A model generated the notes under the pieces. That model was not told the DNA's origin. It searched no databases and saw only the letters and a list, made by a program, of their open reading frames with translations. Below, piece by piece: positions 2-40,403 of a stretch of 64,000 nt of DNA (position 1 is the first letter of the stretch; each line of letters begins with the position of its first letter). The position numbers and the translations under genes were made by a program. The DNA is from Halalkalibacillus sediminis (lineage in GTDB: Bacteria > Bacillota > Bacilli > Bacillales > Alkalibacillaceae): positions 558,001 through 622,000 of the forward strand of contig NZ_PJNH01000001.1 of assembly GCF_002844535.1 (NCBI RefSeq). Direction: 5' to 3'.

Positions 2-1060
2 AACTATAGTACTCTCGAATATGATCAGTCGAGAGGGAAGCGAGGTTCCAGACATCGTCTTGTTGAGGATTATATTTGTGAATTGACTGGTGCTGAAGCA
101 GCGATCGTCGTGAATAACAACGCTGCTAGTGTATATATGGTTTTATCAGCTTTTTCAAAAGGGTATGAAGCAATCGTATCTAGAGGAGAATTAGTAGAGA
201 TTGGTGGAAGTTTCAGAGTTTCATCGATCATGGAAGAGAGCGGCACAAGTTTAAGAGAAGTAGGTACAACAAATAAAACGCACCTTTCTGATTATGAGCA
301 AGCAATCAGTGATAAGACGAAGATGTTAATGAAAGTCCATACAAGTAATTTTCACATGATAGGTTTCACAGAAGAAGTCGATCGAAAAGAATTGTCTGCC
401 TTAGCCAAACGTGAAGGAATTCTATATTTTGAAGACCTCGGTAGTGGTATGCTTTATGACCTAACTTCTTGCGGCATTGGTAGTGAACCATTAGTAAAAG
501 AAGTAGCGGAGCATGCGGATCTTGTTTCGTTTAGTGCTGATAAACTTCTGGGAGGTCCACAAGCGGGGATCATTGCAGGAAAAAAGCACCTTATTGATCA
601 ATTGAAAAAACACCAGTTAGCTCGTGTACTCCGGATTGATAAGATGAGTTATGCAGCCTTAGAAGAGACACTTAAATTAACATTAAAAGACAGTGAAACA
701 TCTAAAAAAGAGATTCCGACATTGCGTGATATTTTGCAGACTCAAGCACAAATCAAGAATCGTGTGGAAATATTCTTAAATGATCTACCATCTAGTACAG
801 ATATGGAGGTAACTCCGGTTGAACTTCAGTCGCAAGTAGGTGGAGGGACTTTGCCAGAAGTTGTCCTTGATTCTTACGGTGTATCTTTACGTGTGAAGAA
901 TAAGATTGCAGAAAAATTGGCAACTGAATTGCGTAGTGCGCATATACCCATTGTTTCACGTATTGATCACGAATCTGTCTTGCTGGACTTTCGTACAATT
1001 GATATTTCGGAAGAAAGAGATTTGAAACAAGCTATAAAAACAATAATGGAAACCTTATAA
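2..1060 (+). CDS. selA: L-seryl-tRNA(Sec) selenium transferase (SelA), 5' end missing
   Basis: SelA is a PLP enzyme that converts seryl-tRNA(Sec) to selenocysteinyl-tRNA(Sec) using selenophosphate. The frame is open from base 2 and runs off the left edge; the readable part (352 residues) begins with a YSTLEYD segment and has the N-terminal small-domain motif SRGKRGSRH followed by TGAEA and VVNNNAA. The PLP-lysine region reads SADKLLGGPQAG. No start codon lies in the window, so the internal TTG at 83 is not the start. It is followed after 150 bp by acnA. Its presence predicts a selenoprotein in this genome; a good candidate lies at 39605-40363. Identification is firm. Confidence 0.93.
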   Translation, partial: NYSTLEYDQSRGKRGSRHRLVEDYICELTGAEAAIVVNNNAASVYMVLSAFSKGYEAIVSRGELVEIGGSFRVSSIMEESGTSLREVGTTNKTHLSDYEQAISDKTKMLMKVHTSNFHMIGFTEEVDRKELSALAKREGILYFEDLGSGMLYDLTSCGIGSEPLVKEVAEHADLVSFSADKLLGGPQAGIIAGKKHLIDQLKKHQLARVLRIDKMSYAALEETLKLTLKDSETSKKEIPTLRDILQTQAQIKNRVEIFLNDLPSSTDMEVTPVELQSQVGGGTLPEVVLDSYGVSLRVKNKIAEKLATELRSAHIPIVSRIDHESVLLDFRTIDISEERDLKQAIKTIMETL

Positions 1061-4228: not shown

Positions 4229-4885
4229 ATGTTAGGTATGTGGCAACTAGGCCCATTTAATATTTATATTCCTCATTTAATCATCATTTTTTCAATTTTA
4301 ATATCAGGGTTTTTGGCCAGTGGTTTAGCGAAACGACATCAGTTGTCCATAACCCCCAAACAGGCATTTGACCTGATAACGGAAGCATGGATCGTATTCT
4401 TCATTGTATGGAAACTTAGCTATTTCTTTTACCATCCTGCTGACCTGGCGGAGAACCCAATTGTAATTCTTTATTTTTTCGGTGGGGAATGGGGGATGTT
4501 GCTTGCTGGAGTATCGGCAGGAATTTATTCTTATTTTCATGCTAAAAAATATGGGTTGCCTCTTACAGATAATTTGATTCTTGTATTAACCAGTGGGGTT
4601 TTCATTAAAAGTATTGATGTTTTGATTGATTATAATCAATTAAAGGAGTACATATTTTTAATTGAAGGGTTCATATATATTAGTGTTCTAGTATATTTTG
4701 CTGTCTTCAATAGATATACACTTATAATGTTCTTCCGTTTATTAAGATGGATTTTAATTGTATGGGTTATATTCCGCGTGGCGACTGAAGAACTGCAGTT
4801 ATATTTTGAATGGACAATCTTTGCGATAATAGTCTCATTAATTTTATTATTTTCTGAGTGGAAGTTCGGGAAGGAGAAAGTCTAA
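4229..4885 (+). CDS. Polytopic membrane protein, Lgt-like
   Basis: The 218-residue protein has about six or seven hydrophobic segments. The first third (LGPFNIYIPHLIII, then a short cytoplasmic stretch and FGGEWGMLLAG) resembles the N-terminal half of prolipoprotein diacylglyceryl transferase, but the conserved HGG-type catalytic segment of Lgt is not present, so transferase activity should not be assumed. The stop overlaps the start of the next gene by one base (TAATG), so it is translationally coupled to a membrane-anchored thioredoxin. It may act with that protein in an envelope thiol or lipoprotein process (inference). Confidence 0.65.
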   Translation: MLGMWQLGPFNIYIPHLIIIFSILISGFLASGLAKRHQLSITPKQAFDLITEAWIVFFIVWKLSYFFYHPADLAENPIVILYFFGGEWGMLLAGVSAGIYSYFHAKKYGLPLTDNLILVLTSGVFIKSIDVLIDYNQLKEYIFLIEGFIYISVLVYFAVFNRYTLIMFFRLLRWILIVWVIFRVATEELQLYFEWTIFAIIVSLILLFSEWKFGKEKV

Positions 4886-5469
4886 TGCTTTTCAAACGTT
4901 TAATTGCTTTAGGAATCATATTAACACTTGGTGGTATTATCGTATACAACGTAATGGCCGGAGATCAAGAGCAGGAAGAAGAGGGTTCTGAAAGTGGCGC
5001 TGTCTTTGTTGTACCTGAAGGAATGGAAGATGTTAATAAAAAGATTGAGATCGGAGAAGCTGCTCCTAATTTTCAGTTGACGAATATGGATGGTGATCAA
5101 GTGGAGCTTAATGATTTCAAAGGAAAAAAGGTTTTACTCAACTTCTGGGCAAGTTGGTGTGGTCCTTGTAGAGCTGAAATGCCACATATGCAAGACATCC
5201 ATGAAAAATATGGTGATGAAGTTGCAATCGTAGGCGTAAATGTAACTGGTTCAGAAACTTCAAAGAAAGACGCAGTAAAATTTGTCGGCGAATACGATTT
5301 AACTTTCCCAATTTTATTTGATGAGACGAATGAAGTCAGTTTGCGATACAAAGCACTATCACTCCCAACTACACACTTCATCAATACTGAAGGAGTCGTG
5401 CAACTGCCACCGAAATCTGGGGCAATGAGTTATGAAGAGATGGAAAAGAAGATAGAACAATTGGATTAA
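4885..5469 (+). CDS. Membrane-anchored TlpA/ResA-type thiol-disulfide oxidoreductase
   Basis: An N-terminal transmembrane anchor (about residues 4-22) and an acidic linker precede an AhpC/TSA-type redoxin domain with the active site WASWCGPCR and the cis-proline segment SLPTTHF. The family acts outside the membrane in cytochrome c maturation or cell-wall/spore redox reactions. The ATG at 4885 was chosen because it overlaps the upstream stop and follows AAGGAG; a longer reading from 4858 lacks a ribosome site. Position next to aconitase corresponds to B. subtilis yneN. Length is 194 residues. Confidence 0.88.
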   Translation: MLFKRLIALGIILTLGGIIVYNVMAGDQEQEEEGSESGAVFVVPEGMEDVNKKIEIGEAAPNFQLTNMDGDQVELNDFKGKKVLLNFWASWCGPCRAEMPHMQDIHEKYGDEVAIVGVNVTGSETSKKDAVKFVGEYDLTFPILFDETNEVSLRYKALSLPTTHFINTEGVVQLPPKSGAMSYEEMEKKIEQLD

Positions 5470-39532: not shown

Positions 39533-39570
39533 AAAAAGAGGGTCACAATTAATGGTGAACCCTCTTCTTT
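39533..39570. terminator. Bidirectional terminator
   Basis: AAGAGGGT (39536-39543) pairs with ACCCTCTT (39559-39566), with T-rich sequence on both strands. It serves the hydrolase gene and the convergent selenoprotein gene. Confidence 0.88.
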
Positions 39571-39604: not shown

Positions 39605-40363
39605 TCATTTATCTTGAGGAATGAAACAACCATCTGGCCCACAAACTAACCCTTGGTTTCTTTGTTGTTCTTCTTTCTTTAGCTCTTTATTTAATTGTTC
39701 TTTTTGCCAATCAAAATCTATATCTTGACCGAATTTTTCTGGATAACGAATATACCATCTTTGTTTTCGAATCGTAAAATTATCAGGATCCAACAGAATA
39801 GCGTCATCCAATTCTTTTAAGGCTTCTTCATCTCTATTTTGTTTAGCATATTCCATTCCAAGTTTAAATTTTGTTTGTGCAAGTTGAAGCTGAAGATCCG
39901 TTTGTTCATTTCTGGTCTGTCCTTCATCAAACTCAACTTTTTCTACCTCTTTGTTAATTAATTGTTCCACAGCCTCAACATGTTCATAGTTATCAACTGA
40001 AAAACCTTCTTTAATCAAACGTATGGTCCCTTCTTCATCAATAAAAATTCCATTTGGTACCATCTTAAAATTAAACATGTTAACTAGTGTATTGTTTTCA
40101 TCTACAACAGTTGTAAAGGTAGTTCCCTCTAAATGGGGCTTAACTACTTCTGAGCCTTGACCGTCCACAGCAACTGAAAGAATTTCAAAATTTTTGTCCT
40201 TGTTTTGATCGTAAACCTTCTGCCAACCTGGCAGTTGTTCGCGGCAGCGTCACCAAGAAGCCCACATAAATATTAATGTGTTTTTTCCATTAAAATCTCT
40301 AATCGAAACTTCTTTTCCATCAACATTTTTTAGCCTAAGATCTTGCACTTTCTCCATTATCAT
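39605..40363 (-). CDS. Probable selenoprotein: TlpA/redoxin-like protein with in-frame UGA and TPR-like tail
   Basis: Reading from the ATG at 40363 (AAGGAGG 7 nt upstream), the frame continues to 39605 apart from one TGA at codon 38 (40252-40250). The sequence around it is LIFMWASW-U-RCREQLPGW, so the TGA takes the place of the N-terminal redox cysteine of a TlpA-like thioredoxin fold. After the redoxin domain (to about residue 145) come a TPR-like helical pair (FKLGMEYAKQNRDEEALKEL, LDPDNF) and a C-terminal CGPDGCF. A stem-loop with a GGU loop follows the UGA at SECIS distance, and selA is in the window. Without recoding, only a 37-residue stub would be made. 252 residues. Confidence 0.85.
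40220..40252 (-). promoter_or_regulatory. Predicted bacterial SECIS element
   Basis: On the mRNA, UGA (40252-40250) is followed after 15 nt by CUGCCA-GGU-UGGCAG (40234-40220): a perfect 6-bp stem with a 3-nt loop starting with G. Known bacterial SECIS elements are short hairpins soon after the UGA, with a G or GU in the loop that SelB reads. Confidence 0.75.
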
Positions 40364-40403
40364 CAATATTCCTCCTTTGATAAAACATCTCATTACTTAT
40401 CAA

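Follow-up and report, generated by a model that had tools for sequence, protein, structure and literature searches.

A predicted selenocysteine-containing U-x-C redoxin with an in-gene SECIS hairpin in Halalkalibacillus sediminis and related Bacillaceae

The gene at 39605..40363 on the minus strand of the window (the whole stretch of Halalkalibacillus sediminis DNA analysed here, 64,000 nucleotides in length, contig C1:558001-622000) almost certainly encodes a selenoprotein, judging from its sequence and that of its relatives. The predicted product is a redoxin of 252 residues with selenocysteine (Sec) at position 38, referred to here as the U-R-C redoxin. From the ATG at 40363 to 39605 the frame contains one internal TGA, codon 38 (40250..40252, minus strand), followed only by the terminal TGA, and the internal codon lies in the context LIFMWASW-U-RCREQLPGW. 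A Shine-Dalgarno sequence, AGGAGG, can be read 7 nt before the start codon (40371..40376, minus strand). The start and the TGA are shared by 44 orthologues; the start position is identical across them, and a similar upstream Shine-Dalgarno motif is found in most. An earlier note on this DNA had described the single TGA in an otherwise open frame and had stated that ORF calling recovers only the downstream part, and both statements hold: mechanical calling of the locus returns 39605-40168 alone, with a GTG start. Gene callers that treat UGA as a stop split the gene and lose the active site, so that the function is missed. Downstream of the gene, inspection by eye shows a hairpin that resembles a terminator, with a run of T after it (39537..39565, minus strand; AGAGGGTTCAC...GTGACCCTCTTTTTT); this hairpin is absent from the list returned by a pattern scan.

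Codon 38 is TGA in all 44 distinct orthologues from Bacillaceae-like genomes, duplicates removed, and Cys in none. A full-length orthologue is present in ten of 61 genomes (H. sediminis and 60 relatives), each with exactly one TGA, and full-length matches occur in 30 of 397 genomes of the order, all with TGA; 398 genomes drawn from the phylum contribute no additional orthologue. In a scan of named genomes, orthologues were found in Paenisporosarcina, Terrihalobacillus, Bacillus, Gracilibacillus, Pontibacillus, Cytobacillus, Virgibacillus, Evansella and others. Filobacillus milosensis JCM 12288 and Piscibacillus halophilus DSM 21633 are also among the carriers. The hosts are salt- and soil-dwelling Bacillus-like bacteria. 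All orthologues in the scan of named genomes that span codon 38 carry a TGA at this position, one further locus (L065) being cut by a contig end. Searches for a Cys orthologue found none, either in the order (397 genomes, E-value 1e-30) or in the phylum (398 genomes, E-value 1e-20), where the sole other match is a ResA-like CxxC protein. Plasmid records contain no match. The alignment at codon 38 proposed in the earlier note, with an eye to exchange between Cys and Sec, comes out in favour of the selenoprotein reading: all 44 orthologues carry UGA at this codon and none Cys, while more distant ResA/TlpA proteins have a CxxC at the equivalent place. On both sides of the TGA the protein is under purifying selection: for most pairs dN is roughly one tenth of dS, short or saturated comparisons being rough.

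Several loci depart from the full-length form. In Neobacillus terrae (L053, 4001-5000), the orthologue stops after 139 residues and the remainder occupies a separate frame nearby, which reflects either a lesion or an assembly error. One genome that has kept its tRNA-Sec (G067; L098, 1272-1616) encodes a lone C-terminal half, comprising the TPR-like part and CGPEGCVIP without the redoxin domain, which suggests either a relic of the gene or a domain that works by itself. A diverged second copy in another genome (L099; G327 C1:689654-690325) has WGSW-U-RC and the hairpin CTGCCCGTGTGGCAG, and lacks the C-terminal CxxxxC tail.

The TGA in H. sediminis is followed, beginning exactly 15 nt past it, by the hairpin CTGCCA-GGT-TGGCAG (40220..40234, minus strand), with the perfect 6-bp stem and GGU loop that had been described beforehand as SECIS-like. 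Bacterial SECIS elements have an apical loop of 3-9 nt, a stem of 4-16 bp, a G at loop position 1 or 2, a distance of 16-37 nt between UGA and loop, and a minimum free energy of at most -7.5 (PMC13188914). This hairpin, with a 3-nt loop whose first base is G, a UGA-to-loop spacing of 21 nt and a minimum free energy of -12.1 kcal/mol, lies within all of these bounds. The peptide encoded by the stem, Leu-Pro-Gly-Trp-Gln, could be written in many synonymous ways. The five core stem pairs are intact in 44 of 44 orthologues against 7.4 expected under synonymous choice with the codon usage of these genes, a contrast for which a formal probability would be too strong, the orthologues being related; 14 of the 44 lack the sixth pair. 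The Leu and Gln codons at the two sides of the stem occur as CTG/CAG in 36 orthologues, TTG/CAA in five, TTG/CAG in two and CTT/GAG (Glu) in one, and never as the non-pairing CTG/CAA. Pair counts over 30 sequences also reveal compensatory changes, with both sides altered at two pairs, above the level seen in shuffles. The hairpin region has no match to any Rfam family; models of this type represent bacterial SECIS elements poorly.

The machinery for Sec insertion is complete in the genome. A tRNA-Sec (61 bits, above the cut-off; anticodon TCA according to ARAGORN) lies about 5 kb left of the window; after it come selB, selD and the whole of selA, genes whose products score 379 bits (TIGR00475), 399 bits (TIGR00476) and 549 bits (TIGR00474), all above the curated cut-offs. 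The selA recognized beforehand at the left edge of the window is therefore real; the window holds its 3' part (2..1060, plus strand) and the genome the whole gene, of 468 codons for amino acids. The remaining components, absence of which would have spoken against a selenoprotein, had been suggested as a check and are all present. The selD gene has its own in-frame TGA, in SSKAG-U-GCKLAA (L009 11137-12195, on contig C1 to the left of the window), so that the genome supplies its own positive control for the use of Sec; SelD is itself a UGA-containing selenoprotein that automatic ORF calling would truncate. A formate dehydrogenase alpha subunit, as a further selenoprotein, was not found in this genome. 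The U-R-C redoxin gene is solitary here, about 40 kb from the sel cluster. Of the genomes in which whole-genome searches detect the full-length gene, all 30 have tRNA-Sec, versus 27 of 51 relatives without the gene; for the first ten genomes, the hypergeometric chance of such co-occurrence is 0.004, kinship being ignored.

On this basis SelB, with a Sec-tRNA(UCA), would read UGA38 as Sec, directed by the in-gene hairpin 15 nt downstream. A stop or frame lesion at UGA38, whether a pseudogene, a sequencing error or a 37-residue peptide followed by a separate 187-residue protein, would explain why mechanical ORF calling yields the downstream part alone, but it is at odds with the TGA in every orthologue, the conservation of the protein on both sides, the synonymous constraint on the hairpin and the co-occurrence with tRNA-Sec, and is vanishingly improbable. 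The invariant TGA and the conserved flanking protein rule out a pseudogene or sequencing error in particular, and a TGT or TGC misread as TGA, the possibility that the earlier note wished to see settled by resequencing, is excluded because the TGA recurs in dozens of independent genomes. It may also be imagined that UGA38 is read through as another residue without SelB, as near-cognate UGA read-through exists in bacteria. This is very unlikely, since the full-length gene is found only in genomes with tRNA-Sec (30 of 30), lies beside selA/selB in some genomes and contains a SECIS element under selection. The selenoprotein reading put forward at the outset is thus supported by the conserved TGA, the full set of Sec genes and the conserved hairpin.

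The protein has a redoxin domain at residues 4-124 (39992..40354, minus strand) of the AhpC-TSA/ResA-TlpA fold, recognized by Pfam PF00578 and PF08534 and by comparison of an AlphaFold2 model with ResA and TlpA; PF00578 (AhpC-TSA) is the best Pfam match, at 61.1 bits against a gathering cut-off of 26. The model, built with 26 sequences, has a pLDDT of 88 and a pTM of 0.84, and a Foldseek search with it places ResA at the top (E 2.5e-11), with DsbE-like and TlpA structures also matched, at sequence identities to ResA/TlpA of only about 20-30%. The TlpA-like redox position assigned to codon 38 in the earlier note stands, with one refinement: the active site, W-A-S-W-U-R-C-R, is of the type U-x-C, with a single residue inside the redox pair where the C-x-x-C of ResA and TlpA has two. 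A TPR-like helical part at residues 163-195 (39779..39877, minus strand) gives a weak Pfam TPR_2 match (22.8 bits, below the cut-off of 27), and helices in the model extend to about residue 236. Near the C-terminus, CGPDGC (Cys241-Cys246; 39626..39643, minus strand) is a possible second redox pair. Both Cys residues are invariant in the 26-sequence alignment, and the CGP[D/E]GC motif is conserved with rare losses, namely RGPDGC in L090 and the missing tail of the L099 paralogue. No signal peptide is recognizable in this soluble protein of the ResA/TlpA fold, which is therefore probably cytosolic.

In most genomes sampled the gene is not adjacent to sel genes. In four genomes, however, those of Paenisporosarcina (L040), Terrihalobacillus (L041), Gracilibacillus (L043) and one further relative (G192, L119), it comes immediately 3' of selB-selA and is read in the same direction; in the last of these it is followed, on the opposite strand, by tRNA-Sec, a glycosyltransferase gene, selD and a gene for a PhnD-type binding protein. 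In Bacillus fonticola, selD is about 1.5 kb from the gene, and in genome G220 tRNA-Sec is about 5 kb from it. The association of selD with family 4 glycosyltransferase and PhnD-type transporter genes in relatives (L119 12302-15768; L042 577-3660; L120 13350-18001) was noted separately. The nearest NCBIfam model to the glycosyltransferase is NF038229, at 291 of 400 bits, whereas SenB, the selenosugar synthase, reaches 83 of 300. The PhnD-type binding protein also resembles the putative selenate-binding family TIGR04553 (178 of 250). A selenium uptake and selenosugar island is possible in this region; H. sediminis has no close copy of the glycosyltransferase.

Taken as a whole, a Sec-decoded cytosolic U-x-C disulfide oxidoreductase is very probably the best explanation of the gene. 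With regard to activity, for which homology gives no anchor in the absence of a Cys form, the motif and fold point, somewhat more strongly than to anything else, to a selenol/thiol-disulfide oxidoreductase that would reduce (or isomerise) disulfide-type substrates in the cytosol. Sec38 would attack as the nucleophile and Cys40 would resolve, giving a Se-S bond across the shortened U-x-C; the C-terminal CxxxxC pair probably passes electrons to this bond, while partner binding is the probable role of the TPR-like helices. A Sec-dependent, Prx-like peroxidase may be entertained tentatively, with Sec38 as the residue that reacts with peroxide and either Cys40 or the C-terminal pair as the resolver of the selenenic acid. 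AhpC-TSA is the best Pfam match, and the chemistry of Sec lends itself well to reactions with peroxide. Where the GOS survey deals with UGC-containing relatives, it classes them as 'Prx-like' (PMC2398784). However, the peroxidatic motif PxxxTxx(C/U) is absent, the sequence FMWASWU corresponding instead to the WAxW-C position of TlpA/thioredoxin, and the nearest structures are ResA, DsbE-like proteins and TlpA. It is less likely that the protein handles selenium in the service of the Sec pathway, for example by reducing or delivering it for SelD. The position immediately after selB-selA in four relatives would suit such a role, as would the proximity of selD and a PhnD-type substrate-binding gene in G192 and B. 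fonticola, but in most of the genomes sampled the gene is apart from the sel genes, and the tRNA-Sec retained by 27 of 51 relatives lacking the gene indicates that Sec use does not require it.

Among named families, NCBIfam NF041054, the ResA-like WAxxUGC motif-containing proteins (WAxxUGC_long), comes nearest to the U-R-C redoxin. Membership is ruled out by the score (118 bits, where the cut-off is 300) and by architecture, and NF041054 is retained as a sister family. The two have in common the redoxin, the WAxxU-x-C motif and a TPR-like C-terminal part, and an NF041054 member that passes the cut-off (L097, 304 bits) has a hairpin of the same type after its UGA, CTGCCA-GTT-TGGCAG. In contrast, NF041054 proteins have U-G-C and an extra 80-100 residues or so at the N-terminus (with a CxxxxC of their own, CTKDTC, in L097), whereas the U-R-C redoxin has U-R-C, a C-terminal CGPDGC and no such extension, the match aligning protein residue 6, its first, with profile position 84. 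The genome of L097, G003, carries members of both families. In L097 (1284-2372), the N-terminal CTKDTCIPL resembles the C-terminal CGPDGCFIP of the U-R-C redoxins, as if the CxxxxC had moved ends.

ResA, StoA and TlpA are CxxC proteins, membrane-anchored and located outside the cytoplasm. The U-R-C redoxin shares their fold and W-A-x-W-(C/U) site, with a TM-score to ResA of about 0.8 by target length, but differs in having U-x-C in all orthologues, no signal peptide and extra C-terminal parts. An ordinary Cys relative, a ResA-like thioredoxin with a normal WCGPC, is encoded in the window at 4858-5469. The bacilliredoxins BrxA and BrxB of bacillithiol-using Firmicutes have a CGC motif, which is C-x-C in type and so like U-x-C; they are a different family, and the likeness seen here is one of motif. 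The UGC-containing Prx-like/TlpA disulfide reductase selenoproteins likewise combine a PF00578-type domain with U-x-C (PMC2398784; PMC13188914), but their motif is UGC rather than URC, and no Cys form of the URC protein has been found; for the UGC family the GOS table gives 46 and 855, the latter presumably Cys homologues (PMC2398784). A 2026 review of 119 selenoprotein families includes the UGC-containing TlpA family, and none of its family descriptions contains the URC motif or the domain combination seen here (PMC13188914). The U-R-C redoxins are a distinct and, it appears, uncatalogued selenoprotein subfamily.

The earlier note did not foresee a Sec-only family, the U-x-C motif, the selB-selA operon in relatives or the WAxxUGC sister family. 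A broader and rather speculative view is that the U-R-C redoxin is a chief client of the Sec machinery in these Bacillaceae, travelling in some lineages within a portable selenium cassette (selB-selA, tRNA-Sec, selD and a PhnD-type, perhaps selenium, transporter), and that the C-terminal CxxxxC of the redoxin recharges its Sec-x-Cys centre. We know of no described bacterial selenoprotein with a centre recharged in this way. The Bacillaceae receive little attention in the selenoprotein literature compared here, and the finding adds to their selenoproteome a well-supported and apparently Sec-only subfamily, which in some members is part of the sel operon. Because no Cys version was found, the U-R-C redoxin lends itself to a clean test of what keeps a lineage from exchanging Sec for Cys, and likewise to one of U-x-C redox chemistry.
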